The translations under genes and the position numbers were made by a program. The notes beneath the pieces are model-generated. The model was given only the letters and a program-made list of their open reading frames with translations. It was not told the DNA's origin and ran no database searches. This document shows, piece after piece, positions 13,778 through 32,392 of a DNA stretch of 64,000 nt. How positions within the stretch are numbered: the stretch's first letter is position 1; every line of letters starts with the position of its first letter. The stretch comes from Achromobacter spanius (GTDB lineage: Bacteria; Pseudomonadota; Gammaproteobacteria; Burkholderiales; Burkholderiaceae_B), in contig NZ_CP121261.1 in the NCBI RefSeq assembly GCF_029637605.1, positions 4,216,001 to 4,280,000 on the forward strand, given 5' to 3'.

Positions 13778-14830
13778 ATGACCGCTAATCCAGTTACCGA
13801 CCGTAAGGTCCGTTTCGCCCTGGTTGGATGTGGGCGCATTTCCAAGAATCACATCGGTGCAATCGCCCAACACAGCGATCGTGCAGAGATCGTGGACGTT
13901 TGTGACACCAATCCCGCTGCGCTCAAGGCAGCAGCCGAAGCAACGGGCGCAACTCCTCACGCGTCGCTGACTGAATTGCTGGCGAATAGCTCGGCAGACG
14001 CGGTCATCCTGGCCACGCCGTCCGGCCTGCACCCTTGGCAAGCGATCGAAATCGCGCAATCTGGCCGCCATGTCGTCAGCGAAAAGCCCATGGCGACGCG
14101 CTGGGAAGACGGCAAGCGCATGGTCAAGGCTTGTGACGAAGCGGGCGTTCGGCTCTTCGTGGTCAAGCAAAACCGCCGCAACGCCACGCTGCAACTGCTC
14201 AAGAAAGCCATCGACCAAGGCCGTTTCGGCCGCATCTATATGGTCACCGTCAACGTCTTCTGGACCCGGCCCCAGGAGTACTACGATGCAGCGCGCTGGC
14301 GCGGCAAGTGGGAATGGGACGGTGGCGCCTTCATGAACCAGGCCAGCCACTATGTAGACTTGCTGGATTGGCTGGTCGGCCCGGTCGAAAGCGTCTACGC
14401 CTACACGGCGACGCTTGCTCGCCGCATTGAAGCGGAAGATACTGGCGTGGCCGCCGTCCGTTGGCGGCATGGCGCAATGGGTTCGATCAACGTCACCATG
14501 TTGACGTATCCGCAGAACTTGGAAGGCTCCATCACAATTCTCGGCGAAAAGGGCACAGTCCGCGTAGGCGGCGTCGCCGTCAATCGCATTGACGAATGGA
14601 AGTTCGCCGACGAAAGCCCCGACGACGACAAGATTCGCGAGGCAAACTACGAAACCACGTCGGTCTATGGCTTCGGTCACCCGCTGTACTACGACAACGT
14701 GATCCGCACATTGCGCGGCGAATGCGAGCCCGAGACGGATGGCCGCGAAGGGCTTCAATCCCTGGCCCTGCTGACCGCGATGTACCGATCGGCGCGCGAC
14801 GGCATCCGTGTTCCATTGCCGCTGGACTGA
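13778..14830 (+). CDS. wlbA: UDP-N-acetyl-2-amino-2-deoxyglucuronate 3-dehydrogenase WlbA
   Basis: Gfo/Idh/MocA oxidoreductase of 350 residues that oxidises C3 of UDP-GlcNAcA using NAD+, the first step specific to 2,3-diacetamido-uronic acids. Rossmann motif [10 protein letters not shown], then [28 protein letters not shown] with the EKP signature, VVKQNRRN and the catalytic-region [15 protein letters not shown]. Length and sequence fit WlbA/WbpB enzymes. It opens the polysaccharide locus, 122 bases from the divergent waaC. The upstream 6-dehydrogenase that makes UDP-GlcNAcA is not in the window. Confidence 0.92.
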
Positions 14831-14834
14831 TCCC

Positions 14835-15404
14835 ATGACTATTCATTCCACTGCAATCATTGACGAAGGCGCCCAGATTGGTACGTCCAGCCGCGTCTGG
14901 CACTGGGTTCATGTCTGCTCCGGGGCGGTGATCGGCGAAGGCTGTTCCCTGGGTCAGAACGTGTTCGTCGGTAACAAGGTAAAAATTGGGGACCGCGTCA
15001 AAATCCAGAACAACGTCTCGGTATATGACAATGTCACGCTCGAGAATGACGTGTTTTGTGGTCCGAGCATGGTCTTCACGAACGTTTACAACCCGCGCGC
15101 CGCAATCGAACGCAAGAACGAATACCGCAATACACTGGTGCGCCAGGGTGCCACGCTGGGCGCCAACTGCACCATTGTGTGCGGCGCCACGATCGGCAGT
15201 TTTGCGTTCGTCGGCGCGGGGGCCGTGGTCAACAAAGACGTACCTGATTTCGCTCTGGTTGTAGGTGTCCCAGCCCGCCAGATCGGCTGGATGAGCCGCC
15301 ACGGCGAACAACTCGACCTACCTCTTACTGGTAACGCGCAGGCGACTTGTCCCGCGACCGGTGATCAATACACGCTCAAGGATGGCGTTTGCCAATTAGT
15401 GTGA
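14835..15404 (+). CDS. wlbB: UDP-2-acetamido-3-amino-uronate N-acetyltransferase WlbB
   Basis: Left-handed beta-helix acetyltransferase of 189 residues (hexapeptide pattern such as [44 protein letters not shown]). It N-acetylates the 3-amino group made by WlbC. The ATG at 14835 lies four bases after wlbA; a longer frame begins inside wlbA and is rejected. Typical of WbpD/WlbB; a close paralogue is encoded at 28605-29141. Confidence 0.92.
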
Positions 15405-15407
15405 ACC

Positions 15408-16508
15408 ATGCAATTCATTGACCTGAAGAAGCAGTATCAACTCCTTCGCGACCCAATCAACACCCGTATCCAGCAGGTGCTGGATCACGGGCAGTACATC
15501 ATGGGCCCGGAAGTCAAAGAGCTGGAAACGGCGCTATGCGCCTACACCGGCGCCAAGCACTGCATCACTGTGGCCTCGGGCACGGAAGCATTGCTGATTT
15601 CGCTGATGGCGCTCGGCGTCACCGCTGGCGACGAGGTCATCACCACATCGTTTACGTTTGTCGCAACCGCCGAAGTTATCGCGTTGCTTGGCGCCGTACC
15701 GGTATTCGTAGATGTCGAAAAAGACACCTGCAACATCCTGGCCTCTGAAATCGAAGCCAAGATCACGCCGCGCACCAAGGCAATCATCCCTGTGTCGCTG
15801 TACGGCCAGTGTGGCGACATGGACGAAGTGAACGCCATTGCGGAAAAGCATGGCATCACCGTGATTGAAGACGCGGCGCAAAGTTTCGGCGCCACATACA
15901 AAGGCAAAAAGAGCTGCAACCTTTCCAAGATCGGCTGCACGAGTTTCTTCCCGAGCAAGCCCCTGGGCTGCTACGGAGACGGCGGCGCCATTTTCACAAG
16001 CGATGACGAACTGGCGCAAGCCATGCGAGAAATCCGCGTTCATGGTCAATCCGGGCGTTATTACCATACCCGTATTGGTGTGGGCGGCCGCATGGACACG
16101 CTGCAATGCGCCGTGGTCCTGGGCAAACTCGAACGCTTTGACGCCGAGGTCGAGCAACGCATCCAGATTGGCGAACGCTATCGCCAACTGCTCGCGGATC
16201 TGCCGAGCGGCTCGGGCACGGTCACCGTACGTCCCGATCGCGACAGCGTGTGGGCGCAATTCACCGTCATGATTCCGAACCGCGAAGCCGTTATTACCTC
16301 GCTCAAGGAAGCCGGCATTCCGACGGCCGTGCATTATCCACGTCCGATCCATATGCAACCGGCATACGCGCATTTTGCCAATGCCTGCGTTACCCCAAAT
16401 TCGGAGTACCTGGCCGAACGTGTCATGAGCTTGCCCATGCATCCTTATATGGATGAGGACGCCATTGCAAACGTTTGCAAAGCACTGATTAGGGCTCTGC
16501 AGCAATGA
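15408..16508 (+). CDS. wlbC: UDP-2-acetamido-3-oxo-uronate 3-aminotransferase WlbC
   Basis: DegT/DnrJ/EryC1/StrS-family PLP enzyme (366 residues) that aminates the 3-keto sugar produced by WlbA, using glutamate. Landmarks: GTEALLISLMALGV cofactor loop, DEVITTSFTFVATAEV, VIEDAAQSFGA, and the Schiff-base lysine in TSFFPSKPLGCYGDGG. Three bases separate it from wlbB; the stop overlaps the wlbD ATG. The same family is represented again at 26485-27609, but that protein is only distantly similar. Confidence 0.93.
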   Translation: MQFIDLKKQYQLLRDPINTRIQQVLDHGQYIMGPEVKELETALCAYTGAKHCITVASGTEALLISLMALGVTAGDEVITTSFTFVATAEVIALLGAVPVFVDVEKDTCNILASEIEAKITPRTKAIIPVSLYGQCGDMDEVNAIAEKHGITVIEDAAQSFGATYKGKKSCNLSKIGCTSFFPSKPLGCYGDGGAIFTSDDELAQAMREIRVHGQSGRYYHTRIGVGGRMDTLQCAVVLGKLERFDAEVEQRIQIGERYRQLLADLPSGSGTVTVRPDRDSVWAQFTVMIPNREAVITSLKEAGIPTAVHYPRPIHMQPAYAHFANACVTPNSEYLAERVMSLPMHPYMDEDAIANVCKALIRALQQ

Positions 16509-17593
16509 GCATCAAGATAATCACGATCGTCGGTGCCCGCCCTCAATTCATCAAGGCCGCTGCGATCTCTCGCCAGATCCGCGACAATCGACAAGGTCGT
16601 ATCGAAGAAGTCCTAGTCCATACGGGCCAGCACTACGACGGCAATATGTCACAAGTGTTCTTCGACGAACTGGGCATTCCCTCGCCAAAGCACAACCTCA
16701 GCATCGCTGGCGGATCGCATGGGGCCATGACGGGCCGCATGCTTGAGGCCATCGAAGATATCCTGCTCCAGGAAAAACCTGATTGGGTTCTTATTTACGG
16801 TGACACCAATTCCACCTTGGCCGGCGCGTTGGCAGCTGCAAAGTTGCATATTCCCGTCGCCCATGTGGAGGCCGGCTTGCGCTCGTTCAACATGCGCATG
16901 CCCGAAGAAGTAAACCGAATACTCTCCGACCGCGTCTCCACTTTGTTACTGTGCCCCACCGATACGGCCGTTCAAAATCTGGCCAACGAGGGTATTACCG
17001 TGGGTGTGAGTAATGTAGGCGATGTGATGTTTGACGTTGCTCTCTATTATGGAGAGAAAGCGCGGCAAACCAGCACGATCATGCAGAAGCTTGGATTGAA
17101 GGAAAAATGCTTCATCTTGGCAACGTGCCATCGTGCCGAAAATACCGACGACTCTACACGGCTGTCCGCCATCCTGTCCGCGCTGGGGGACATTTCCGCT
17201 AGGCAAACCGTCGTGCTGCCGCTACATCCCCGTACGCGCAAACTGGTTGAGGCGAACCTCGAATCGTTGCTCGGCAATGTCCGCATTGTGGAACCCTTGG
17301 CATTCCTGGACATGGTGGCCCTTGAACAGTCGGCCAGCGCCATCCTGACTGACTCTGGCGGCGTGCAGAAGGAGGCATTTTTCTACCAGGTTCCCTGCAT
17401 TACCTTGCGTGACGAAACGGAATGGGTAGAAACCGTGGATTCTGGCTGGAACCAACTGGTGGGCGCCAACCGTGAACGGATTCTGGAAGCCGTCGCGACG
17501 CTCTCACCCCCCTCCTCGACCCCCTGCCTGTTCGGGCGTGGCGATGCGGCAGAGCGTGCACTGGATTGCCTGGAAGCAACAACTAATGTTTGA
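16505..17593 (+). CDS. wlbD: UDP-2,3-diacetamido-2,3-dideoxyglucuronate 2-epimerase WlbD
   Basis: A 362-residue non-hydrolysing UDP-GlcNAc 2-epimerase-family enzyme, converting UDP-GlcNAc3NAcA to the mannuronic form. Characteristic runs: VGARPQFIKAAAISRQI, LVHTGQHYDGNMS, GDTNSTLAGALAA, HVEAGLRSFNMRMPEEVNR, HRAENTD, and LTDSGGVQKEAFFYQVPCITLRDETEWVE. It completes the four-enzyme wlb pathway. It overlaps the next gene (wzm) by eight bases. Confidence 0.93.
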   Translation: MSIKIITIVGARPQFIKAAAISRQIRDNRQGRIEEVLVHTGQHYDGNMSQVFFDELGIPSPKHNLSIAGGSHGAMTGRMLEAIEDILLQEKPDWVLIYGDTNSTLAGALAAAKLHIPVAHVEAGLRSFNMRMPEEVNRILSDRVSTLLLCPTDTAVQNLANEGITVGVSNVGDVMFDVALYYGEKARQTSTIMQKLGLKEKCFILATCHRAENTDDSTRLSAILSALGDISARQTVVLPLHPRTRKLVEANLESLLGNVRIVEPLAFLDMVALEQSASAILTDSGGVQKEAFFYQVPCITLRDETEWVETVDSGWNQLVGANRERILEAVATLSPPSSTPCLFGRGDAAERALDCLEATTNV

Positions 17594-18371
17594 TAGATCG
17601 CAGCTATTGTGGAAGCACCGCAGGCTTCTTTGGGCGACCACGCTGACCGATGTGAAAATGCGTTTTTCCGGGACCATCCTGGGGCGTCTGTGGACGCTGT
17701 TGTACCCGCTGATGTTTCTCGGCTTGTACGCGGTCGTCTATACGATGATCTTCAAGATCAAGCTCGGCAACTATTCCACGTTTGAATATGTGCTGCTTAT
17801 CTTTAGCGGGCTCATTCCATTCCTGGGCTTCTCCGAAGCGCTGGGTGGCGGGGTGGGTTGCGTGCTTGGTAATAAGGGGCTGGTCAAGAACACGCTATTT
17901 CCCATCGAGCTGATTCCCGTCAAGGCCGTGCTCGCCAGTTCGGTCACGATGCTGGTCGGGCTGGCATTGCTGCTGATCTTCCTTTGGGCCAATGGCATCG
18001 TGCATGCGACCCAGTTTATGCTGCCGGTCATCATCGTGCTTCAGCTGATATTCACAATCGGCCTGATCTGGCTGCTTTCGGCCATGAACGTGTTTATTCC
18101 AGACATCGCGCAAACCGTGTCGATCATGACGCTATTTCTGATGCTGGTTTCGCCGATCGCCTATACGCATGAAATGATACCGCCGGCACTGGTGCCCTTC
18201 ATGTATCCCAATCCGCTGTATTACCTCATCATGCTTTACCGCGACGTGGCTTTCATTGGCGTGATTCCCACCTCCATGTTGATCACGTTCACGTGCATCG
18301 CTGGTGGTTTCTTTATGTTGGGCGGTTACGTGTTCTCTCGTCTGAAGCCTTTGTTCGCCGACTATGTCTGA
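17586..18371 (+). CDS. wzm: O-antigen ABC transporter permease
   Basis: A 261-residue ABC-2-type permease with about six transmembrane helices (YPLMFLGLYAVVYTMIF, EYVLLIFSGLIPFLGF, VLASSVTMLVGLALLLIFLW and others). The short cytoplasmic start LWATTLTDVKMRFSGTILGRLWTLLYP is typical of Wzm/TagG-family polysaccharide exporters. It moves undecaprenyl-linked polymer across the inner membrane, paired with the Wzt-like ATPase it overlaps by eight bases. The ATG at 17586 is preferred to the longer frame, whose extension lies inside wlbD and lacks hydrophobic character. Confidence 0.93.
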   Translation: MFDRSQLLWKHRRLLWATTLTDVKMRFSGTILGRLWTLLYPLMFLGLYAVVYTMIFKIKLGNYSTFEYVLLIFSGLIPFLGFSEALGGGVGCVLGNKGLVKNTLFPIELIPVKAVLASSVTMLVGLALLLIFLWANGIVHATQFMLPVIIVLQLIFTIGLIWLLSAMNVFIPDIAQTVSIMTLFLMLVSPIAYTHEMIPPALVPFMYPNPLYYLIMLYRDVAFIGVIPTSMLITFTCIAGGFFMLGGYVFSRLKPLFADYV

Positions 18372-20154
18372 CCCGATTATCGAGATATCAGATCTCTCAA
18401 AGATGTTCCGAATGTTCCGGTCGCCGCGCTTCCGGATGATGGAAACCTTGGGTCTGCCCGTTCCCTCGAACAGCTACGAAGAGTTCTGGGCGCTGCGCGA
18501 CATTTCGTTTTCCATCCAGCCAGGTGAACGGATCGGGTTGATCGGTCGAAACGGCGCCGGCAAAAGTACCCTGCTCAAAATCGTCGCGGGGCTATTGCGC
18601 CCGTCTTCCGGCTACGCGCGGGTGCGAGGCGAAGTCCAGGCGCTGATGGAATTGGGGACTGGCTTTCACCCCGAATTCACAGGCCGCGCCAACGTCATCT
18701 CGTCGTTGGCCTACCAGGGCGTGACCGGCAGGGAAGCCAAGCGCCTGCTGGACAGCGTCATCGACTTTTCGGAACTCGATGAGTTCATGGACAAGCCGGT
18801 CAAGACGTATTCGGCCGGCATGTATTCGCGCCTTGCGTTTGCGGTCGCCACCGCCGTGCGCCCCGAGATTTTGATCATTGACGAAATTCTCGGTGCTGGC
18901 GATGCGTACTTCTCGGCGAAGTCCGCCGCACGGATGCGCGAACTGACTTCACAAGGCACCACTGTTCTCTTCGTTTCGCACGACATGTCCGCGGTGCAAA
19001 TGATCTGCGACCGCTGCATCTGGATCGAGCGCGGCCGCATGATCATGGACAGCGATCCGAACGACGTCAGCAAGCGGTATGCGGCATCAATCCGCAAGCA
19101 GGAAGAGCTGCGGCTGCGCGCGATCAACCTCAAGTTGCAGCGCGGCGACGTCAGCGAGTTGCTCACGGGCACTGACCTGGACAAGACACATATCTTGCGC
19201 TTGGTGACGTCGGCCCAACGCGCGCCGGAAAAGCCTGTGCCCGTGTATCGCGTCGACTTGCTGCATCACAACGAGACGCTGGATTCGGTTATTGTCGGTG
19301 ACGCTCGCGATGACGACCGCACCGAACGCCTGCATCTGCTGACCGCCAAGGGATTCATGGAGTGGGGTCCGCCCTCCAAGGCGTCAGATGGGCAACCCTT
19401 CCGCATGGTCGGCCGCTTCAATGGGTCTTACAATCACGCCCCGATCAGCCTGCGCCTTCCAGTCGGCATGGGCGAGGACGTGAATTTCAGCCTGAAGATT
19501 ACCCACGGCCCGGTCGATCCCGCCGAACCGTTGCTTCTGCAGATGTTTGACGGCGTGGACTACATCACGCTTGGCGCGCTGCAACACAGCGGCGCACGGG
19601 TGCTTGAAACAGTCATTCCAATGGAGGCTGCCGCAACCAGTGAAGCCGAACCGCCCAAGGAGGACGAGCAGCCGGAGCGCGATGACTTCACATATGGCAC
19701 AGGCGACGCCTGGATTGCCGATGTGGACTTCTTGGACGCCAAGGGGGTCTCACACCGACTGTTCCATTTTTCCCAACCTATGTACGTCAAGATCGGCTGG
19801 CGTGCAAAGAAGCCGCTTGATCGCTTGGTGTTCGCCGTGTGCGTTTACGGCTTAGATGGCCGTTGCGTCTCACAGGTGATTTCGCCGTTCGTCTCGACAG
19901 AAGGCAACGGTTCGCAAGGCACTGTCACGGCGGCCTTTGAGCCGTTACGCATCGGCAAGGGTGATTACCTGGTTTCGATCGGGATATTTGACGGCCTCAC
20001 CACGGAAACCAGCGGCGACGCCGTGGCGTTCGACGTCCAAGACCGCAAGTATCGCCTGCGTGTGACGCCCCCCGTCAACGCAGCACTGGAACGAGGCATC
20101 GTGGTGGACGACGCCGTATGGTCGGTCAACACTACCCGCGGGGGTCAAAAATGA
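18364..20154 (+). CDS. wzt: O-antigen ABC transporter ATPase with two C-terminal beta domains
   Basis: At 596 residues this is clearly longer than common Wzt proteins (about 400-430). Residues 1-250 are the ATPase: Walker A GRNGAGKS, signature YSAGM, Walker B ILIIDEILGAGD, switch SHDMSAV. Residues about 440-590 resemble the Wzt C-terminal carbohydrate-binding beta-sandwich (FGT-like GDAWIADVDFLDAKG, then DYLVSIGIFDG). Between them, residues 309-405 form a separate beta-rich module with GSYNHAP at 354-360; the same module occurs in the exported protein at 24098-26398. In characterised systems the C-terminal domain recognises a modified chain end. Overlaps the methyltransferase gene as ATGA. 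Confidence 0.93.
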   Translation: MSDPIIEISDLSKMFRMFRSPRFRMMETLGLPVPSNSYEEFWALRDISFSIQPGERIGLIGRNGAGKSTLLKIVAGLLRPSSGYARVRGEVQALMELGTGFHPEFTGRANVISSLAYQGVTGREAKRLLDSVIDFSELDEFMDKPVKTYSAGMYSRLAFAVATAVRPEILIIDEILGAGDAYFSAKSAARMRELTSQGTTVLFVSHDMSAVQMICDRCIWIERGRMIMDSDPNDVSKRYAASIRKQEELRLRAINLKLQRGDVSELLTGTDLDKTHILRLVTSAQRAPEKPVPVYRVDLLHHNETLDSVIVGDARDDDRTERLHLLTAKGFMEWGPPSKASDGQPFRMVGRFNGSYNHAPISLRLPVGMGEDVNFSLKITHGPVDPAEPLLLQMFDGVDYITLGALQHSGARVLETVIPMEAAATSEAEPPKEDEQPERDDFTYGTGDAWIADVDFLDAKGVSHRLFHFSQPMYVKIGWRAKKPLDRLVFAVCVYGLDGRCVSQVISPFVSTEGNGSQGTVTAAFEPLRIGKGDYLVSIGIFDGLTTETSGDAVAFDVQDRKYRLRVTPPVNAALERGIVVDDAVWSVNTTRGGQK

Positions 20155-21509
20155 GTTCGAACTACTACGACCAGGCCACCCTCTGGAATGCCGCGCCCAG
20201 CGCCGCGCAGGTCGACGTCGCGCAAGCGCTTAAGGCCCGTATCCCAGAGGATGTGCGCACTATCCTGGATGCAGGCTGTGGTAGTGGCATCGTCACCAAC
20301 GCCCTGGTGGATCAATGGGATGTGATGGGATGCGACATCAGCCAGACCGCTTTGGCCCAGGTCAATGCACCGACCGTGCTTGCCGATCTGACTGACCTGC
20401 CCTTTGAAGATCAGAAATTCGACTTAGTCCTGTCCAGCGATGTCATCGAGCATATTCCGGACAGCGTGTATCGCGCGGCAATTAAGGAAATCGCACGGGT
20501 TGCCAGCAAATACATCCTGATCGCAGTGCCGTATCAGGAAATTCTCGAGGCGTCTACAGTACAGTGCCCGAAGTGCCGCTGCCGGTTTCACGCCCATTAT
20601 CATCAGCGATCCTACTCGGCGACGAATTTCGAGGATCTGTTTCCGCCGGAATTCGAGGTGGTGTCGACCAGCCTGGCCGGAGAACGCTGGCCGTTCAGTA
20701 ACGTCACGCTGTCACAAACCGGCCTGGAGCTGGCCGACCTGGACTACGAGTTTCCCTCTGCAATTTGCCCCGATTGCGGCACGCAACGTGAAGCACGCCT
20801 TCCTTCGCAGCAGGCAGCCATTCTGGAAAAACAGTTGCTCGCCCTGCAATACCTGCGTTACGAGCACGGATTGGAAACCGCACCCACGCCATCCGAATTG
20901 CTTGTGCTGCTCAAGCGCAGGGAAACCCCACCCGCGATGCCCCAGCGCATCAATGAGCCTGAGTTTTCGGGAGAATTTGCGGTAACTTCGCCTATTGTTC
21001 TGGATCAGTGCAGCCGTTTGGGACACTTGGTTAACTATCCGAGCCGGCCCTATCTCGTGCCTGATGGAGATGAATTCGAAGTCTTAATGATGCCACGCCT
21101 GCCGTATCAGATCTTTGCAACAGCAACGCAGCAAGACGCGCCGGAACTGGCCGTTTACGACGCGGTGAAGGAGCGATATCAATCTGTCCCCGTCAAGCGC
21201 GAGAAAAACGACGAATGGCGCTTTACTTGCCCGGAGGTCTGCCCTGGCACCGTTGGTTACCGAATCCGAATTCCCAAAGCAGCGGGCTTCGGGACATTGC
21301 GAGTAGTATGGTCAGAAGCCCTGAATTGGGCTCAGTGCTTTAATCGCGCTTTTGAGTTCAGCGCTGCGGTTTCAAATTTGCAGAACCAGCTTGAAGCAGA
21401 GCGCGCGGAACACGCTAAACAGTTGAATGCCATCAATGCACTGGCTAACGATATTGAGGCGCGACGCGCTTCGTTGGAAAGCCAGTTGAATCAGCGATCA
21501 GAATCATAA
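20151..21509 (+). CDS. SAM-dependent methyltransferase with zinc-type Cys pairs and C-terminal coiled coil
   Basis: A 452-residue protein. Residues 35-130 are a class I methyltransferase: LDAGCGSGIVT (motif I), MGCDIS, and LVLSSDVIEHIP. Two Cys pairs (139/142 and 206/209) suggest a zinc-binding insertion. Residues 275-400 are beta-rich with no family I recognise. Residues about 404-448 (from VSNLQNQLEAERAEHAKQ on) form a heptad-like coiled coil. The gene directly follows wzt with an ATGA overlap. In O9a-type systems chain length is set by a terminating methyltransferase with a coiled coil, recognised by Wzt; by analogy this could cap the chain. The methylated position is unknown. Confidence 0.75.
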   Translation: MSSNYYDQATLWNAAPSAAQVDVAQALKARIPEDVRTILDAGCGSGIVTNALVDQWDVMGCDISQTALAQVNAPTVLADLTDLPFEDQKFDLVLSSDVIEHIPDSVYRAAIKEIARVASKYILIAVPYQEILEASTVQCPKCRCRFHAHYHQRSYSATNFEDLFPPEFEVVSTSLAGERWPFSNVTLSQTGLELADLDYEFPSAICPDCGTQREARLPSQQAAILEKQLLALQYLRYEHGLETAPTPSELLVLLKRRETPPAMPQRINEPEFSGEFAVTSPIVLDQCSRLGHLVNYPSRPYLVPDGDEFEVLMMPRLPYQIFATATQQDAPELAVYDAVKERYQSVPVKREKNDEWRFTCPEVCPGTVGYRIRIPKAAGFGTLRVVWSEALNWAQCFNRAFEFSAAVSNLQNQLEAERAEHAKQLNAINALANDIEARRASLESQLNQRSES

Positions 21510-21540
21510 AAGAATCTTTCTGATCCGTATCATTGAATGA

Positions 21541-21568
21541 GTAGGGCCTTGTCAAGACAAGGCCCTAC
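21541..21568. terminator. Perfect 28-base palindrome, possible terminator or attenuator
   Basis: GTAGGGCCTTGTC and GACAAGGCCCTAC pair perfectly over 13 bases around a 2-base loop (4 once the closing pair opens). It lies in the 100-base gap between the methyltransferase and the next glycosyltransferase. There is no T-tract on either side, so termination would be factor-dependent or partial; it may instead protect the upstream mRNA. Confidence 0.5.
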
Positions 21569-21610
21569 GCGCGCACCTTACACGCATAGTTATATCGGGT
21601 GTCATCGAGC

Positions 21611-22630
21611 ATGAAGATTTTCCACGGGCCAAACAATATTGCTGGCGCTGCCGGGGTGCTTGCCAAGGCCCAGCGCACACTCGGCTACGATGCTGAAGCA
21701 GTTTGCTACAGCACCGGCACCTATGGATATCCGGCCGACAGATACTTGAAGCGGACGATGGCTGACCGCGTGTCTTCGACGATTAAGGAGAGCCTAACAC
21801 ACGACGTGTTTCATTTCTATTTCGGCCAGTCGTTAACGGGTGGAAGTCTATATGACGTGCCTTGGCTGAAGCGCATGGGAAAAAGAGTCTTCTTCTATTT
21901 TTGCGGATGTGACCTGCGCGACGCCAAGGCGGTTATCGCCCGGCATGAATACAGCGCTTGTAAAACGTGTTGGCCCGCTGCTTGCAGCGCCAATCGCTTG
22001 AAGGCGGTCGAGACCGCGAGCAACTGTGATGGCATTTTTGTTAGCACACCGGACTTGCTGGAATTCGTAGAGGACGCCATTTGGTTGCCGCAACCGCTGA
22101 ACTTCGAACAGTTCGACGCCCTACGCCAGTCGTTGCAAGCTAGCGCAGCCTGGAGCCAACGCGCCAAGAAGACGGTGCGCATTGCTCACGGCCCGTCGAG
22201 CCGGCTGCTCAAGGGCACGATCCATCTCGAGGAAGCCATCGCAAGTCTGCAGGCGCGTCACCTCGACGTCGAATTGGTGCTGGTCGAAAAGATGAGCCAT
22301 GTTGACGCCATGCAGGCCTGCCTGGACGCAGACATTATTGTTGATCAATTATTGATCGGCGCCTATGGACAGTTTTCCGTTGAGATGATGGCGTTGGGTA
22401 AACCGGTGGTTTGCTACATCCGCGATGATCTCCGGCCCCTGTATCCTGCAGATCTTCCCATCTTATCCGCCAATCCACGCACCATCGAGCAAGTATTGGA
22501 AAGCTTGGTGAATCAACCGGAGACCTGGGCGGGAATGGGTGAAGCGGGTTTGACCTATGCCAGGAAATATCACGATTCCTTCGCTGTGGCAAAAATTGCG
22601 ATAGACGCGTACAACATTAAAAATACATAA
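21611..22630 (+). CDS. GT-B glycosyltransferase
   Basis: A 339-residue cytoplasmic glycosyltransferase. The N-terminal half begins MKIFHGPNNIAGAAGVLAKAQ, the pattern of an acceptor-binding Rossmann domain; the C-terminal half has VRIAHGPSSRLLKG, VELVLVEKMSHVDAMQACLDADIIVDQLLIGAYGQFSVEMMALGKPVVCY, which matches the donor-binding part of GT4-like enzymes (E after GQFSV). A Cys-rich stretch in the middle, CGCDLRD then CKTCWPAAC, is unusual and could bind a metal. Start: ATG at 21611; an in-frame GTG four codons earlier is possible. Sugar specificity unknown. Confidence 0.8.
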   Translation: MKIFHGPNNIAGAAGVLAKAQRTLGYDAEAVCYSTGTYGYPADRYLKRTMADRVSSTIKESLTHDVFHFYFGQSLTGGSLYDVPWLKRMGKRVFFYFCGCDLRDAKAVIARHEYSACKTCWPAACSANRLKAVETASNCDGIFVSTPDLLEFVEDAIWLPQPLNFEQFDALRQSLQASAAWSQRAKKTVRIAHGPSSRLLKGTIHLEEAIASLQARHLDVELVLVEKMSHVDAMQACLDADIIVDQLLIGAYGQFSVEMMALGKPVVCYIRDDLRPLYPADLPILSANPRTIEQVLESLVNQPETWAGMGEAGLTYARKYHDSFAVAKIAIDAYNIKNT

Positions 22631-22655
22631 TTAAATAGATCGGCAGATTATTTCC

Positions 22656-24101
22656 ATGCGAATACTAATGATGACCGATGATGTGCAAATTGACCGCCGC
22701 ATCATCCAGGAAGCAAAGTCACTGATCGCTCGTAACAATGAGGTAATCCTGTTGTCAGCTCCTGGTGAAAACCTGGCGCCGCACGAGGTTATCGAGGGAG
22801 TAAAAGTTGAACGCGTCACTTTTTCGACCAGCCGTCAGCGTTTGATCGAAGTCATCATCGTCCGCATTCACGGCCGCTTTATCGAACTCGTCAACGCGGG
22901 GTCGACCGTTGGCCAACGCTTGAGCTCCAAAGTGGCCTCACTGCCGTTCAAGGCGTTGTCGTTTCTGCGCCGCATGACGTGGCGTGCTATTCACCCCCGC
23001 CGGCCCACACCGAATTCGCCAGGCCTGACTCGCATCACCGGCCGCGCGCAGTCCATCGCCATGCACGTCACCTGGCGTTGTTTCTGGCTTGCCGCCGTGA
23101 TTTCCAATCGCTTGCTGGCGTTCACGCTTCGCGTCATCCGTCGCATTGCACGCGTGACCAGCCGAGACGCCACGCTGGTCGAGCGGGCCAAATTCTTCAA
23201 TGCAGATGTCGTCCACGCGCACGACCTACCGCAGCTGCAAGCGGGTGTAAACGCGGCGCGCGAGTTGAATGTCCCCTTGATTTATGACGCCCACGAGCTG
23301 TATCCCGAAATCTGCACACTCACGCCAGAGCAACAAAAGCGCCTGGGGCGCGTGGAAAAGAAACTGATCAAGCATTGCGACGCAGTGATCACGGTCAATC
23401 CTCATCTAGCGCAAGAATTCGCGCGGCGCTATGACATCACGGCCCCGGACGTCATTCTCAATGCCATCGATCCTTTCGATGACCTTCATGATCGGCCGCG
23501 CAACTTGTTCAGAGAAGAATTGAACATTCCCTCGGACAAGCAAATTCTGCTATTTCAGGGCTGGATGTCGCCCGACCGTGGCTTGCAAGATCTGGTGCGC
23601 GCCCTAGTCAATGTCCAGCCCGACGTGCATCTGGTCTTCATGGGTTACGGTGATCTCGTCAAAGACCTGACCAAAATCGCCGAAGAGGTCAACGTGCTGG
23701 ACCGGGTGCATTTTAAAAATGCCGTTCCCCAAGTCGAACTGTTGTATTGGACCGCGTCGGCCGACGCCGGCATCATTCCCTATCAACCGGTAGATTTGAA
23801 CCATTGGTTCTGCTCGCCGAATAAGCTGTTTGAATTCGTTCAGTCGCGCTTGCCCATCATCGCCAACGACCTCCCTTATTTGCGGGATGTCATCACCACG
23901 GATGGAGTCGGCCTGGTTGCAGACATGAAGTCGCTGGACGCCCTGTCGGCGGCGATCAATGCCATGTTCGACCCGGAGGTAGGCGGCGCTGCGCGCTTCA
24001 AGCCGGCCCTTGAGGCAGCACAGTACAAATATTCATGGCAGGCCCAGGAAGCCCAGCTCTTTGGCATTTACGAACGCGTACTCGGCCAAGGAAAAGCATG
24101 A
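22656..24101 (+). CDS. GT4-family glycosyltransferase with an Arg-rich membrane-associating insertion
   Basis: A 481-residue GT-B glycosyltransferase. N-terminus: MRILMMTDDVQIDRRIIQEAKSL; catalytic core: VVHAHDLPQL, IYDAHELYPE, CDAVITVNPHLAQEF, LLFQGWMSPDRGLQDL, and the donor-site run CSPNKLFEFVQSRLPIIANDLP. It is a paralogue of the protein at 31157-32392, sharing QIDRRI.QEA.SL, DAVITVNP and NKLFE. Compared with it, residues about 68-180 are an additional stretch rich in Arg and hydrophobic residues that probably lies along the membrane. Its stop overlaps the start of the exported fusion protein. Which linkage it makes cannot be read. Confidence 0.87.
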   Translation: MRILMMTDDVQIDRRIIQEAKSLIARNNEVILLSAPGENLAPHEVIEGVKVERVTFSTSRQRLIEVIIVRIHGRFIELVNAGSTVGQRLSSKVASLPFKALSFLRRMTWRAIHPRRPTPNSPGLTRITGRAQSIAMHVTWRCFWLAAVISNRLLAFTLRVIRRIARVTSRDATLVERAKFFNADVVHAHDLPQLQAGVNAARELNVPLIYDAHELYPEICTLTPEQQKRLGRVEKKLIKHCDAVITVNPHLAQEFARRYDITAPDVILNAIDPFDDLHDRPRNLFREELNIPSDKQILLFQGWMSPDRGLQDLVRALVNVQPDVHLVFMGYGDLVKDLTKIAEEVNVLDRVHFKNAVPQVELLYWTASADAGIIPYQPVDLNHWFCSPNKLFEFVQSRLPIIANDLPYLRDVITTDGVGLVADMKSLDALSAAINAMFDPEVGGAARFKPALEAAQYKYSWQAQEAQLFGIYERVLGQGKA

Positions 24102-26398
24102 TGACAACGAACGCCCACGTGCCCGGACGCCTGTTGCGAGCCGGCCGGGAAGTCCGTTGGACCAGTCTGTTGATGATCGCCGCTATCTTTTTGCTGTTTG
24201 CGTCAACCGCCCACGCTCAGCGCGCCGGTCTGTGGATGCAGCAGTTCATGGAGATGTCGCCAAACCAATGGTCGGTGTACCAACGCAAGGTCGAAATGGT
24301 GACCAAGGAAACTGGCGATGCCAGGATTCTTGATGAGTCGCCCACCCTGATCGCCATGAAGGGGCTGGACGCGCTGTTGCGCAAAGATGTCGTGCTGGCG
24401 AAAACACAAGCTGCCCTGTTGGACCAATACGCGGTCACGCGGCAGAATGCGACGTGGTTTGAATTCCGCTGGGACTATTCCACGTCCTGGCCGTACAAGC
24501 TGAAAGCCCCTTGGATATCAGGCCTGGCGCAAGGGCTGGGTTTGTCGCTCAACACCTGGCTATATCAGGCCACCAAGGAACCGCGTTATCTGAAGGCTGC
24601 CCGGAATATCGCGAAGAGCTATCTGGTTCCCATCGAGAACGGTGGATTCTTGCGCAAGGAGGCTGACGGATCGATAAATTTCGAAGAGTATCCGGTCGCC
24701 ACGCCCACGCATGTCTTGAACGGTGCCGCGCTAGCCACGCTGGCATTACAGGATTACGCGAAAGTCAGCGGCGACAACGCTTATGCCAGCACGATTAAAT
24801 CCGCCTATGCTTGGTGGAATAGCAATATTGCACGCTATCAAGTCGTGGATGCGTCCTATCCGGAAGTCGTGTCCGCCTATTCCCTGGCGCCACACCGAAA
24901 TGAATTGCTGTTTCGTCTCTTGTCGGACACGCCTTTCAATGTCCGTAAAATTTCATTCAAACCGGAAAAGGGTGATCCACTGACGCTGCAAGTGGGCCAA
25001 TCAGAAGATGCCGACCGTTCCACGGACGCCTTCCTTTGGTTTAATCCAAAATTCCAAAACTGGAGCGAACCCAAGGAAAGCTCTTTGGGAAAATACAGAA
25101 GCTTTGTTCCTAAACAAGGCGAATATAACCACGCGCCTTTTACGTTTTCAGTGACACCAGAGGCCCTGAAACAATCCGCCACCCTGGAGTTGCAAGTTGA
25201 CGACTTGCAGTCGGGCGAAGTGCTCGTTCAGTTGTATACAGGCAAGGAATATCTCCCGGTGGGAAAAATTGCGATGCAAGGCACGCAACAGACCCTCAGT
25301 TTTCCGATATCCGCGGAAGTTCTCGGCGCTTTCCAGGATGCGCAATCCGTCCCGCCGCCGGTCGAGCCTGCTTATTTCACCGACAACTACCTGTTGGTGA
25401 GCTTGCTTGGCCAGGCAGGCCATTCGCCTGTTCTGCAACGCGCGGCCCGCCGGTTCGAGAATTCGACATCGTTGACACCTGGTGTCTACGACGCAAGTCC
25501 GCGCACGCGTTGGCTGCTTGGGGAACCCATGCAATTCAAAGCACCGACCGAGCATGGCCCCGAAGCCTGGCACACGGAATACCCGAGCGTCTTGGTGGCG
25601 GATGGCCTTTGGCAGCTCTACTATTCCGCCATTGGGGAAGACAGCCGCTGGCGGATCATGCATGCAACATCCAACGACCAAGGCAAGACCTGGGGGCCGT
25701 CCGAGCAGGTTCTTGACGAGGCCCACTTGGAATTCCACGGAAGTTACGCGTTTCCATCTGTCCAATACGACAAGATGCACGAGCTATACGTCATGGTGTT
25801 CTCCGCGGACTATGACCGCGATGGCCACTACGACGCGGTCATGCTCGCCGAATCCGCCGACCTCAAGACCTGGACGCCGCCGCGACGCGTCGCCAGCGAA
25901 GGCGGTCTGGCTCCCATCCTTTGGCATGACGGCGAGTACTACCATATCGCCTATACGATCAAGGATGGGGAGTCCTTCCACGTGATGGAAATGCAGTCCC
26001 TGGATCGTCTATCATGGACCCTTCCTAAGTCCATTGCCAGTGCACGCGCCCGATTGCATTCGGGTTTCTATACCCTCGCGCGCCTGCCCAGCCGAAAGGA
26101 CTTCTTCATGATGGAACGCTTCCTAGCGCCTGGTCGGATTGAATGGAGAGTCATGTGTCGAGCAGCTGACTCGACGTTGATCGACGTTTCAAAATCGCCC
26201 TTCTACGTCTTGGGTGCAAACCCGGGAAGGTGGGACGACTATCGATATGGCATGAGCTTTTTCCGCGCTCCCGATGGCCGACTGCTGATGTTTCTGAACG
26301 GCATACCATTTGGCGCCGAACATGGCGGCAGCATGGCGATGGTCGGTGTAGACGAGAAGGCGCTTTGGAAGAACATCGACACGTCGAGCTGTCATTGA
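24098..26398 (+). CDS. Exported fusion: D-glucuronyl C5-epimerase-like domain, beta-sandwich module, beta-propeller
   Basis: A 766-residue protein with a signal peptide (LLMIAAIFLLFASTAHAQ). Residues about 60-290 resemble the C-terminal catalytic domain of D-glucuronyl C5-epimerases: FEEYPVATPTHVLNG at 195-209 followed by a helical barrel. Residues 297-390 are the same beta-sandwich module as in Wzt, with YNHAP at 343-347. Residues about 490-750 look like a five-bladed propeller of the GH43/GH32/sialidase type, with an Asp-box SNDQGKTW at 525-532 and FHGSYAFPSVQY. Polymer-level C5 epimerisation of an exported polyuronate, as AlgG does for alginate, is the natural hypothesis; substrate and activity are unproven. 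ATGA overlap with the preceding gene. Confidence 0.75.
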   Translation: MMTTNAHVPGRLLRAGREVRWTSLLMIAAIFLLFASTAHAQRAGLWMQQFMEMSPNQWSVYQRKVEMVTKETGDARILDESPTLIAMKGLDALLRKDVVLAKTQAALLDQYAVTRQNATWFEFRWDYSTSWPYKLKAPWISGLAQGLGLSLNTWLYQATKEPRYLKAARNIAKSYLVPIENGGFLRKEADGSINFEEYPVATPTHVLNGAALATLALQDYAKVSGDNAYASTIKSAYAWWNSNIARYQVVDASYPEVVSAYSLAPHRNELLFRLLSDTPFNVRKISFKPEKGDPLTLQVGQSEDADRSTDAFLWFNPKFQNWSEPKESSLGKYRSFVPKQGEYNHAPFTFSVTPEALKQSATLELQVDDLQSGEVLVQLYTGKEYLPVGKIAMQGTQQTLSFPISAEVLGAFQDAQSVPPPVEPAYFTDNYLLVSLLGQAGHSPVLQRAARRFENSTSLTPGVYDASPRTRWLLGEPMQFKAPTEHGPEAWHTEYPSVLVADGLWQLYYSAIGEDSRWRIMHATSNDQGKTWGPSEQVLDEAHLEFHGSYAFPSVQYDKMHELYVMVFSADYDRDGHYDAVMLAESADLKTWTPPRRVASEGGLAPILWHDGEYYHIAYTIKDGESFHVMEMQSLDRLSWTLPKSIASARARLHSGFYTLARLPSRKDFFMMERFLAPGRIEWRVMCRAADSTLIDVSKSPFYVLGANPGRWDDYRYGMSFFRAPDGRLLMFLNGIPFGAEHGGSMAMVGVDEKALWKNIDTSSCH

Positions 26399-26484: not shown

Positions 26485-27609
26485 ATGGCAGTCAGCTTTA
26501 TAGACTTGCGCCGCTTCGAGTCGGGTTTTCAGGAAGCATGGCAACGCCAGGTCGCGGAGATGTCGGCACGAGCCGAGTTTATTGGCGGACAGAGCGTTTC
26601 TCGACTGGAAGAGCGACTCCGTGAAGCCACGGGCGCCCGCGAAGTGGTGAGTTGCGCGAACGGCACCGACGCCCTCCAACTGGCATTGCGCGCCGTTGGT
26701 GTGGGCCGTGACGATATCGTGCTGGTGCCGGACCTCACTTTCTGGGCGACTTACGAAGCCGTTGTGAACGTCAACGCCACGCCGTACACGGTTGACTGCA
26801 ACAAGGCAGACCAAAGCCTGGACGTGGACCTGGTTGCCGAATTGCTCGGCACGGTCAAGCCCAAGGCCGTCATCGTGGTGCACCTGTACGGCTGGGGCAC
26901 GGCTCGTCTGGCTGAACTGCGCAAGCTGTGCCGCGATGCGGGTGTTGCACTGATCGAAGACTCCGCTCAGGCATATGGCGTGAAGGTCGACGGCGATTCC
27001 ATTTTCAAGGGCGCCCACATCGCGACCACCTCGTTCTACCCGGCAAAAGTGCTGGGCGCGGCTGGAGACGGCGGCGCCGTGTTCTGCGAAGATAAGACGT
27101 TGGCCGACACGGTGCGCCGACTGTCCAACCATGGTCGCACCGCCCATTACGGCCACGGCGACGTGGGTTGGAACTCCCGCCTGGATTCGCTGCAGGCCGC
27201 CTTCCTGAACCTGAGCTTGGATCACATTGACGCGCGCCTTGAATCGCGCCGCGCCTCCGCGAACCTCTATCGCGAAAAACTTGGGAATCGTTTCCCGAGC
27301 TTTACCGTTGCAGATGCACCGGCCGGTTACGAAGAAAATGGTTACTGCAACGTGAGCTTCGTGGACGACTTGGCCGTCAAGGCGCGCCTGGAAGCCGCGC
27401 TGAAGGAAAAGCAAATCGGCTTTGGCAATATCTACCCCTCGCCCTTGTCCAAGCAACCCGGCGCGGCAGCCTACCTTAAGGGTCAAGCCGGCGGCGAGAC
27501 GGCGGCGTGGCTGTGCAGCCATGTGATCAACCTGCCGTTGTTCCCCTATATGACTGACAGCGAAATCGCCGAAGTTGTGGACACGGTCAGCGCCGTTCTG
27601 AGCGCCTGA
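26485..27609 (+). CDS. DegT/DnrJ-family sugar aminotransferase (second set)
   Basis: A 374-residue PLP-dependent nucleotide-sugar aminotransferase. Motifs: CANGTDALQLALRAVGV, DIVLVPDLTFWATYEAV, LIEDSAQAYG, and the Schiff-base lysine in TTSFYPAKVLGAAGDGG; HYGHGDVGWNSRLDSLQAAFL is the usual substrate-loop region. It has its own TTGGAG ribosome site after an 86-base gap in which TTGACA occurs at 26411 without a well-spaced -10. It begins a three-gene cassette with the next two genes, so it probably aminates the keto sugar they handle, perhaps at C3. Confidence 0.9.
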   Translation: MAVSFIDLRRFESGFQEAWQRQVAEMSARAEFIGGQSVSRLEERLREATGAREVVSCANGTDALQLALRAVGVGRDDIVLVPDLTFWATYEAVVNVNATPYTVDCNKADQSLDVDLVAELLGTVKPKAVIVVHLYGWGTARLAELRKLCRDAGVALIEDSAQAYGVKVDGDSIFKGAHIATTSFYPAKVLGAAGDGGAVFCEDKTLADTVRRLSNHGRTAHYGHGDVGWNSRLDSLQAAFLNLSLDHIDARLESRRASANLYREKLGNRFPSFTVADAPAGYEENGYCNVSFVDDLAVKARLEAALKEKQIGFGNIYPSPLSKQPGAAAYLKGQAGGETAAWLCSHVINLPLFPYMTDSEIAEVVDTVSAVLSA

Positions 27610-27632
27610 CGTCCGCACCACTGGAGCATGAC

Positions 27633-28595
27633 ATGAAATACGCAATCATCGGCGTCGGCAACATGGGTAAGAACCACGCCCGAGCCGTGCACGAGCTTGG
27701 CTTGACGGAATTGGTGGCCGTCGCCGACTCTTCGACGCAAACCGTCAATTCGATCGCCAAGCTGTACAACTGCCAGGCATTCGACGACTACATCAAGATG
27801 CTGGACGAGTGCGAAATCGATGCAGTGTCGATCTGCGTTCCGACCACGCTGCACGCCAGCGTTGCAACGGAATGCCTGCGCCGCGGCAAGCACGTTCTGC
27901 TCGAAAAGCCCATCGCTCCCACCGTCGAGGAAGGCCTGCAATTGCAGTCTTTCGCAAAGGAACAAGGGGTGCAGTTGATGATCGGTCACATCGAGCGCTT
28001 CAACCCCGCCGTCGTGAAGGTCAAGGAACTGCTGCGCAACAATGAGATCGGCCGCGTCGTTTCCATCATGGCGCGCCGCGTCGGCATTTTCCCGCCGCAA
28101 ATCCGCGACGCGAATATCGCCGTGGATCTGGCGATCCACGATCTGGATATCGTCAGCTATCTGCTGGACGAATTCCCGACCGATGTGACCTCGGACAAGC
28201 GCCGCAACCACATCGAATTGCGTGAAGACTCCGTAGAGTTCTTCCTCCGTTATCCTTCGGCTGCCGCTTACGTGCAAGCCAACTGGATCACGCCGGTGAA
28301 GATTCGCAAATTGAACATCACTGGCACCGATGGCTATCTGGAGATGGATTACATCAACCAGAAGATTCAGTTCTATAAGAGCAACTACGAAAAATACCGC
28401 GATGAACCCGGCCACATTACGGGGTACTCGGACTACGTACTGAAATACATGGAGCCGGACCTCGTCGAGATTCAGGTCGCCAAACGCGAGCCATTGAAGG
28501 AACAGATTTCCTACTTCGTTCGCGCCATTAACAACGGCGAACAGATCGACAACTCGTTTGCCATTCAAGCGCTTCGAATCGCCCTCCAAGCCTAG
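27633..28595 (+). CDS. Gfo/Idh/MocA nucleotide-sugar dehydrogenase (second set)
   Basis: A 320-residue NAD(P)-dependent oxidoreductase: Rossmann motif IIGVGNMGKNHARAV, then PTTLHASVATECLRRGKHVLLEKPIAPT with EKP, MIGHIERFNPAV, and VDLAIHDLDIVSYLL in the catalytic region. It is shorter than WlbA and differs in its C-terminal half. Family members paired with a DegT aminotransferase include GnnA-type UDP-GlcNAc 3-dehydrogenases. With the neighbours on each side it would give a 3-amino sugar that is then acetylated. Well-placed GGAG upstream. Confidence 0.88.
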   Translation: MKYAIIGVGNMGKNHARAVHELGLTELVAVADSSTQTVNSIAKLYNCQAFDDYIKMLDECEIDAVSICVPTTLHASVATECLRRGKHVLLEKPIAPTVEEGLQLQSFAKEQGVQLMIGHIERFNPAVVKVKELLRNNEIGRVVSIMARRVGIFPPQIRDANIAVDLAIHDLDIVSYLLDEFPTDVTSDKRRNHIELREDSVEFFLRYPSAAAYVQANWITPVKIRKLNITGTDGYLEMDYINQKIQFYKSNYEKYRDEPGHITGYSDYVLKYMEPDLVEIQVAKREPLKEQISYFVRAINNGEQIDNSFAIQALRIALQA

Positions 28596-28604
28596 GAAAG
28601 CATT

Positions 28605-29141
28605 GTGACCAGCGAAAAGAAATTCTTCATTCATGCCACCGCGGAAGTCTCGGCCAAGGCCGATATCGGTGACGGCACCAAAATCTGGAATTACGCACAG
28701 GTGCGTGAGGGCGTAACGCTCGGCAGCGAGTGCATCGTCGGGAAGAACGTTTACATCGATTTCGATGTGCGCATCGGTTCGCGCTGCAAGATCCAGAATA
28801 ATTGTTCGATTTATCACGGCGCCGAGCTGGAAGACGGCGTGTTCGTCGGCCCGCACGTTATTCTGACCAATGACAAGAAACCGCGCGCCATTGCGCCCGA
28901 CGGCTCTCTCAAAGGGAATGCGGATTGGGTCGTCGGCCCGATCCGTATTTGCTACGGCGCCGCGCTGGGTGCGGGCTCCATCATCCTGCCCAACGTGACC
29001 GTCGGACGTTTCGCTCTCGTTGGTGCGGGCGCGGTCGTCACTCGTGACGTGCCCGATTACGCGTTGGTCGCCGGCAACCCTGCCCAAGTGATTGGATGGG
29101 TGGATGCCGATGGCAATCGCGTGGAACAGCCGCCTGCCTGA
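28605..29141 (+). CDS. Hexapeptide-repeat sugar N-acetyltransferase (second set)
   Basis: A 178-residue left-handed beta-helix acyltransferase (IGDGTKIWNYAQVREGVTLG, VGKNVYIDFDVRIG, CKIQNNCSIYHG, LGAGSIILPNVTVGRFALVGAGAVVTRDVPDYALVAGNPA). It closely resembles WlbB in layout but is shorter at the C-terminus. Start GTG, preceded by AGGAAAG. It ends the second amino-sugar cassette; a strong intrinsic terminator follows within 50 bases. Acetylation of a 3-amino (or 4-amino) nucleotide sugar is the likely role. Confidence 0.9.
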   Translation: MTSEKKFFIHATAEVSAKADIGDGTKIWNYAQVREGVTLGSECIVGKNVYIDFDVRIGSRCKIQNNCSIYHGAELEDGVFVGPHVILTNDKKPRAIAPDGSLKGNADWVVGPIRICYGAALGAGSIILPNVTVGRFALVGAGAVVTRDVPDYALVAGNPAQVIGWVDADGNRVEQPPA

Positions 29142-31156: not shown

Positions 31157-32392
31157 ATGACGGTTTCGTCTCCGTCAGTGGTAATGCTCACGGCGGACCG
31201 ACAAATTGACCGGCGGATTCTCCAGGAAGCCCAGAGCCTGCGCGCACGCGGTTGGCAAGTGACGCTTATCGCGATGCCCGAAGATGCACCGGCCCCGCTA
31301 CCCGCAGGGCTGGATGTCATTCGGGTGGGAGCGGGCAACACCGGCACGCCCTCGCGTGAGAGCTTCATCCTGGACGCCTACCGCGTCATCCGCTCCCTGC
31401 TGCCGATGAACGGGCGGTTGATGCGGTTCGCCAAGCAGGTCGCGTGGAGCTACGTTGTCGACCAGGAACAGTTCTACCAACGCTTGTATGGCGCATCGGC
31501 ACTTCAGTTCCGGCCCACGGTATTCGTGGCGCATGACTTGCCGATGCTGGCCGTGGCCCATCGCGCTGCCCACGCCTGTGGCGCGCGGCTCGTGTATGAC
31601 AGCCACGAGCTCTTTGCCGAACAGGAATTCTCGAATTCCGAACGAAAACGGTGGCGCCATATCGAAGGCCAACACATCGGCGCCTGTGACGCGGTCATCA
31701 CCGTGAACCCATCCATCGCGCGCGAACTCGAAACGCGCTACGAATTGGAAAATCCGGTCAACGTCATCTATAACGCGGCGTATCTCGAATCCCCATCGCC
31801 CGCCAAAGGCAAGCTTCGAAGGCAGCTTGGATTGCCCGATGACGCACGTATCCTATTAATGCAAGGCGGCCTGTCGGCCGGGCGCAATATTGACACCCTG
31901 GTACGGGCAATGGCCAAGGTCAAGACACAAGACGTACACTTGGTCCTGCTGGGGGATGGGCAAATCACGCGCTACCTCAAACGCATGGTGCGTTCGCTGC
32001 ATCTAGAGAATCGGGTTTATTTTCACCCGGCCGTGCCGCAACATGCACTACCTGAGTACACCATTGATGCGGACTTGGGGGTGATCCCCTACCTGGCCTC
32101 CTGTTTAAACAACCGCTATTGCACGCCGAACAAGCTGTTTGAATATGTGGCTGCTGAACTTCCCATGTTAGCCAGCGATCTTCCCGAAATCAGTCGTATC
32201 GTGAATGAATTCAATTTGGGCCTGACCACAGATTTCGGCTCCGAGGCATCGATCGCGCAGGGGATCGATAATTGCTTTGCCAAGTCAGATCGTCTAGTCC
32301 AATGGCGTCAAAATGCCGCGCGTGCCCGTAATCAGCTCTGTTGGGAACAAGAAGAAAGAAAGCTGATCTCGATTTTCGAGGCATTTCGGTGA
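31157..32392 (+). CDS. GT4-family glycosyltransferase
   Basis: A 411-residue GT-B enzyme, paralogous to that at 22656-24101: QIDRRILQEAQSL, FVAHDLPMLAVAHRA, YDSHELFAE, CDAVITVNPSIARELETRY, LLMQGGLSAGRNIDTLV, and YCTPNKLFEYVAAELPMLASDLPE. It lacks that protein's long Arg-rich insertion. GGAG lies seven bases before the ATG at 31157, which is why this start is preferred to the GTG at 31151 that overlaps the previous stop. Acts in the cytoplasm on the lipid-linked chain; donor unknown. Confidence 0.88.
   Translation: MTVSSPSVVMLTADRQIDRRILQEAQSLRARGWQVTLIAMPEDAPAPLPAGLDVIRVGAGNTGTPSRESFILDAYRVIRSLLPMNGRLMRFAKQVAWSYVVDQEQFYQRLYGASALQFRPTVFVAHDLPMLAVAHRAAHACGARLVYDSHELFAEQEFSNSERKRWRHIEGQHIGACDAVITVNPSIARELETRYELENPVNVIYNAAYLESPSPAKGKLRRQLGLPDDARILLMQGGLSAGRNIDTLVRAMAKVKTQDVHLVLLGDGQITRYLKRMVRSLHLENRVYFHPAVPQHALPEYTIDADLGVIPYLASCLNNRYCTPNKLFEYVAAELPMLASDLPEISRIVNEFNLGLTTDFGSEASIAQGIDNCFAKSDRLVQWRQNAARARNQLCWEQEERKLISIFEAFR

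Follow-up and report, generated by a model that had tools for sequence, protein, structure and literature searches.

What do the ATPase of a polysaccharide exporter and an exported-looking enzyme encoded a few genes away have in common? The question is raised by a predicted O-polysaccharide ABC exporter locus of Achromobacter spanius, which we analysed in a window of 64,000 nucleotides (contig NZ_CP121261.1, positions 4,216,001 to 4,280,000 of the forward strand). The original prediction had described a resemblance between residues 309-405 of Wzt, the ATP-binding exporter subunit (19288-19578 of the window), and residues 297-390 of an exported-looking protein, a predicted C5-epimerase (24986-25267, translated from the ATG at 24098), and these positions proved exact. 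On the evidence of the alignments, residues ~286-432 of Wzt and ~272-420 of the exported-looking protein are homologous copies of one small domain, referred to below as the module. Our preferred reading, with a probability of roughly 0.55, is that in both proteins the module binds the polysaccharide of this locus, in the form it has before epimerisation.

The resemblance was confirmed as homology by BLASTP, hhalign and shuffled controls. BLASTP aligned the two full proteins over 106 columns with 5 gaps (25% identity, 43.5 bits, E=2e-8), and their Smith-Waterman score is 100, whereas the best of 2000 shuffles reached 61 (z=16). Comparison of a profile of five Wzt modules (A3) with a profile of six enzyme modules (A4) by hhalign returned a significant match with a probability of 97.8 (E=7e-13 over 130 columns), against 0.3 and 0.6 when either profile was reversed. 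The homology is longer than had been proposed, extending over Wzt ~289-422 and enzyme ~277-406 in the same comparison. All-against-all BLASTP of the 159 open reading frames (ORFs) of at least 120 amino acids in the window revealed 11 pairs at E<=1e-3, among them the Wzt/enzyme pair (E=1.4e-6), besides eight that join proteins of similar kind (ABC ATPases, oxidoreductases, acetyltransferases, aminotransferases, glycosyltransferases) and two in which the antisense shadows of such proteins match each other. When these ORFs were scored with the Wzt-module profile, the exported-looking protein was the best non-self match (53.0 vs 20.4 for the next).

The enzyme-module profile, run over the whole 6.47-Mb genome at E<=0.01, had just two hits, the enzyme gene itself (3.9e-91) and wzt (2.8e-9); the combined profile again reported these two genes alone, with no further module copy at E<=10 among 19 first-pass candidates. 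Built from no Wzt sequence, the enzyme-module profile also matched the Wzt proteins of Paracidovorax (1.2e-14 and 1.7e-14), Bordetella (2.7e-12) and the window (4.1e-10), these E-values referring to the window and six loci only. A recent copy made within the locus was ruled out, the Wzt and enzyme modules forming the two sides of the module tree (support 99/98, the split appearing in 98% of 200 bootstrap trees, with a program warning of long branches).

Alignment of 17 rows across both families (one protein being counted twice) revealed ten invariant columns, which in Wzt are G312, W334, R347, G354, H358-A359-P360, Q393, G397 and Y400 and in the enzyme G300, W322, R334, G341, H345-A346-P347, Q378, G382 and Y385. 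The retention of tryptophan, arginine, histidine, glutamine and tyrosine despite an overall identity of ~25% suggests a ligand site. Two motifs of the original prediction survive in part: the D-x-D-R turn (D316-D317-D318-R319 in Wzt) persists in the Wzt rows of the alignment and in window-type enzymes but not in enzymes of the Paracidovorax oryzae type, and of YNHAP only HAP is invariant, relatives reading YLHAP or FDHAP. The predicted model of the Wzt module is beta-rich (mean predicted local distance difference test score 71.7) and that of the enzyme module contains strands; the proposed beta-sandwich is a low-confidence prediction, and a glycan-binding fold was not recognised.

In Wzt the ATPase (residues 1-~245; ABC_tran, 4.8e-22) is followed by a linker, the module and Wzt_C (443-568; 4.3e-14), and a Wzm-type membrane subunit is encoded adjacently (Table 1), its true start likely lying downstream of 17472. 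The exported-looking protein begins with a signal-peptide-like N terminus, as judged by eye, and comprises a C5-epimerase-like alpha/alpha domain, into which the module is inserted, and a BNR-like (propeller) C-terminal half. It belongs to the C5-epim_C family (PF06662; 2.9e-22, 79.5 bits against a cut-off of 23.3) and matches PDB entries 4pw2 and 6hzz by sequence; the BNR_2 match (3.1e-5, 23.9 bits) lies under its cut-off of 31.4.

The module interrupts the epimerase domain between Tyr261 and Tyr426. Counterparts of the human catalytic pair Glu499 and Tyr578, the latter described as the catalytic base (PMC12834895), were sought in the enzyme, the EEYP motif being aligned by sequence and Y426 by the end of the structural alignment. 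The first-to-last aligned residues of the model and 6hzz are 3-420 and 169-611, and model Y387 falls at position 578 only if the end of the alignment is gap-free, an assumption on which the assignment of Y426, just past the module, rests. Compared with the D-glucuronyl C5-epimerase GLCE (PF06662; 4pw2, 6hzz), the predicted window enzyme carries ~150 additional residues within the alpha/alpha domain, its model is devoid of the N-terminal beta-domains, and it possesses the BNR-like C-terminal half.

Table 1. Features of the window, with the genes for enzyme parts in Paracidovorax (coordinates within the named loci)
Feature	Coordinates	Strand	Basis
wzm, exporter membrane subunit	17472..18371	+	Pfam ABC2_membrane 6.5e-8
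wzt, ATP-binding subunit of predicted O-polysaccharide ABC exporter	18364..20154	+	Pfam
Module copy in Wzt	19219..19659	+	BLASTP, hhalign, alignment
Methyltransferase adjoining wzt, C-terminal coiled-coil-like stretch (by eye)	20118..21509	+	Pfam Methyltransf_11 4.1e-17
Exported-looking protein, predicted C5-epimerase	24098..26398	+	Pfam, PDB sequence match, signal peptide by eye
E196-E197-Y198, aligned with EEYP motif of animal C5-epimerases	24683..24691	+	Alignment to 4pw2, 6hzz
Module copy in enzyme	24911..25357	+	BLASTP, hhalign, profile search
Y426, predicted counterpart of human Tyr578	25373..25375	+	Model-to-6hzz alignment
Paracidovorax enzyme-part gene	L026:10261-11550	-	
Paracidovorax enzyme-part gene	L027:9620-10600	-	
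Paracidovorax enzyme-part gene	L028:8845-10050	+	

The module is apparently an undescribed domain family. No Pfam family and no PDB sequence was found to cover it; eight members compared with Pfam, which omits some families of carbohydrate-binding modules (CBMs), matched only LonC_helical, in two of the eight and at best with E=0.14, and the best 25 of 188 NCBIfam families matching Wzt all fall on the ATPase part. In its second half the enzyme module (P0002) weakly resembles V-type ATPase subunit B (residues 364-435 against PDB, E=0.042; residues 360-430 against NCBIfam, E=0.13; together residues 360-435, window 25175-25390), which was set aside as chance. A second Wzt_C was ruled out (the two module profiles reached hhalign probabilities of 0.4 and 0.1 with an alignment of three Wzt_C rows), Pfam placing Wzt_C (PF14524) at 443-568 of Wzt only, and so was a copy of the methyltransferase C-terminal domain, to which no similarity was detected; all four comparisons of the two module profiles with these domains remained at a probability of at most 0.4. 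Like Wzt_C, the module lies C-terminal to the ATPase in an exporter that meets a lipid-linked glycan; unlike Wzt_C, with which it shares no profile similarity, it is found in an exported-looking enzyme as well, and this Wzt carries its own Wzt_C downstream.

The module resembles the CBMs of carbohydrate-active enzymes in being a small beta-rich accessory domain on a glycan-active enzyme and differs from them in its position within the catalytic domain, in its presence in an exporter ATPase, in having no credible Pfam match and in that its binding is only predicted. The carbohydrate-binding domains (CBDs) of Wzt, fused to the ATPase, are described as dimeric jelly rolls that read the chain cap (PMC9445017); some exporters are reported to have no CBM, and an Ig-like putative CBM is predicted in one terminator enzyme (PMC11231755). 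In the descriptions drawn on here, Wzt has either no glycan-binding domain or a cap reader. The predicted Ig-like domain of Klebsiella O7 ORF6 (PMC11231755) is likewise a putative CBM, carried by an enzyme whose locus serves an O-polysaccharide exported by an ABC system; as described there, it belongs to the chain terminator and is not placed in Wzt. Among titles and abstract openings on Wzt with C5-epimerases or on the CBM organisation of Wzt, none reported the module.

The module is rare. Searches of a set of 5.8 billion proteins yielded five Wzt-type proteins with the Wzt query, seven enzyme-type proteins with the enzyme query and two near-copies of the P. oryzae enzyme with that enzyme as query, and a pattern-based scan of genome contigs revealed three loci, all with Wzt, in Bordetella genomosp. 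12, P. oryzae and P. citrulli. In overlapping genome samples, the Wzt-module profile hit 4/399 genomes of the order (three being partial chance matches) and the enzyme-module profile 1/399; the combined profile hit 1/43 genomes of the genus and 2/299 of a phylum sample, one of the latter again a partial chance match. An updated profile (A9) detected the module in two of 17 Paracidovorax genomes, in the same two of 299 genomes of the Paracidovorax family, and in 1/15 within the genus of Bordetella genomosp. 12. Four partial matches of ~39 to 47 model positions were dropped before counting: L010 and L011, on the strand opposite an ammonium-transporter-like and a TypA-like protein (named by eye), L012, in an arginine-rich frame, and L034, in a long protein that by eye looks unrelated. 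PF06662 is present in four of the 399 genomes of the order, of which L030 and L031 are without the module and L033 is divergent, with no module motif discernible by eye.

Comparison of the related loci bears on whether the module is tied to the enzyme. The locus of Bordetella genomosp. 12 (L017) shares with the window, at identities of 65-92%, the collinear gene order wzm, wzt, methyltransferase, two glycosyltransferases, aminotransferase, oxidoreductase, acetyltransferase and asparagine-synthase-like gene. The epimerase gene is absent from this locus, where the expected interval measures 343 bases (14972 to 15316) against ~2.4 kilobases in the window, and the epimerase profile run over that genome found the Wzt module only. 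The Wzt module is therefore independent of the epimerase, one relative keeping it without the epimerase gene. In P. oryzae, a 430-residue exported-looking epimerase (PF06662, 74.4 bits) carries the module at 235-389 and a separate 327-residue protein on another contig matches the propeller half, so that the single window protein corresponds to two genes there; of these enzyme parts, the P. citrulli genome yielded the propeller alone. Within the genus Paracidovorax, the genomes with the Wzt module are exactly those with an enzyme-part homologue (2/2 vs 0/15; 1 in 136 by an exact count that ignores kinship).

As to the ligand, the window encodes a Gfo/Idh oxidoreductase, a hexapeptide transferase, a DegT aminotransferase and a UDP-GlcNAc 2-epimerase, a set which we take to make a 2,3-diacetamido-2,3-dideoxy-uronic acid, and also a second aminotransferase/oxidoreductase/hexapeptide set with an asparagine-synthase-like protein, which together would make a uronamide. 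Each of the four loci set side by side (window, L017, L018, L019) has homologues of wzm, wzt, the methyltransferase, the second glycosyltransferase and the asparagine-synthase-like gene. Hence, the candidate ligand suggested by these neighbouring genes is a unit of the chain body, either a diacylamino-uronic acid or a uronamide. The two sets occupy 13778-17593 and 26485-29141 of the window, and their counterparts share 31%, 26% and 42% identity; in the stretches examined, the second set is the one present in the Bordetella locus, and the loci of Paracidovorax are similar to the first. The methyltransferase, a homologue of which follows the module-bearing wzt in 4/4 loci, is likely the chain terminator making the cap read by Wzt_C; its middle domain is of no recognised family, and the protein is reminiscent of chain-terminating methyltransferases. 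The glycosyltransferase-like protein at 21599-22630 has sub-threshold Pfam matches only (best Glyco_trans_1_2, E=0.041) and resembles the glycosyltransferase at 32341-33639 (E=1.7e-4).

The original prediction had held that a shared glycan-binding module would let exporter and enzyme recognise the same polymer feature. This is partly supported, with the co-occurrence in Paracidovorax on its side. Since the Bordetella locus keeps the Wzt module in the absence of the epimerase, any ligand common to both copies would need to be the chain prior to epimerisation. Such a ligand fits the order of events, since Wzt would meet the chain before the periplasmic epimerase can act. In the cytoplasm, the Wzt copy, between ATPase and Wzt_C, would bind the chain body and assist the entry of completed chains into the exporter; its periplasmic counterpart in the enzyme, located at the active-site entrance, would keep hold of that same chain during C5 epimerisation of a uronic acid. 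Wzt_C is the cap-reading domain in studied exporters. We tentatively suggest, as a possibility short of an expectation, that one un-epimerised epitope is recognised on two occasions: by the exporter, where this would add a checkpoint to that of the cap reader, and by the epimerase, at the entrance to its active site. Two search results weigh against a common module: at E<=0.01 the Wzt-module profile reported only wzt in the genome and not the enzyme gene, which it found at E=1.8e-7 in a small set without filters, and the searches of the 5.8-billion protein set from Wzt and from the enzyme each missed the other family.

Both copies might instead bind glycan and recognise different features, for example the cap in Wzt and the backbone in the enzyme, as parts of a toolkit of related loci. 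The division of the tree into Wzt and enzyme sets, subject to its long-branch warning, the Bordetella Wzt module without enzyme and the identity of just 25% would all agree with this, but the W/R/HAP/Q/Y core is common to both sets and, in Paracidovorax, the Wzt module is accompanied by enzyme parts, and we regard separate features as rather unlikely. Less probable still is a structural or protein-contact domain, serving dimerisation or docking to a common partner with no glycan binding. The dimeric descriptions of Wzt CBDs (PMC9445017) and human GLCE (PMC12350261) and the lack of a recognised glycan-binding fold lend this some colour, yet a single shared protein partner is unlikely because the copies lie in different predicted compartments, Wzt retains Wzt_C, which is the portion described as the dimerising CBD (PMC9445017), the enzyme module adjoins the putative active site, and W, R, H, Q and Y are among the invariant residues. 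Chance resemblance of two beta-rich segments, in keeping with short motifs, low identity and database searches that stayed within each family, is refuted at the sequence level by the hhalign score against its reversed controls, by the recovery of wzt and the enzyme alone from a whole genome and by the match at ~1e-14 (small set) to Paracidovorax Wzt proteins outside the profile's build set.

Should binding of the un-epimerised chain by both copies be true, export licensing and post-export remodelling of the O-polysaccharide would share one recognition code. A ten-residue signature is now available for this apparently new domain family. A second Wzt domain, unrelated to Wzt_C and shared with a tailoring enzyme, offers a concrete way to ask how the chain body might be recognised by an exporter, and likewise how a periplasmic epimerase acting at the polymer level finds its substrate.

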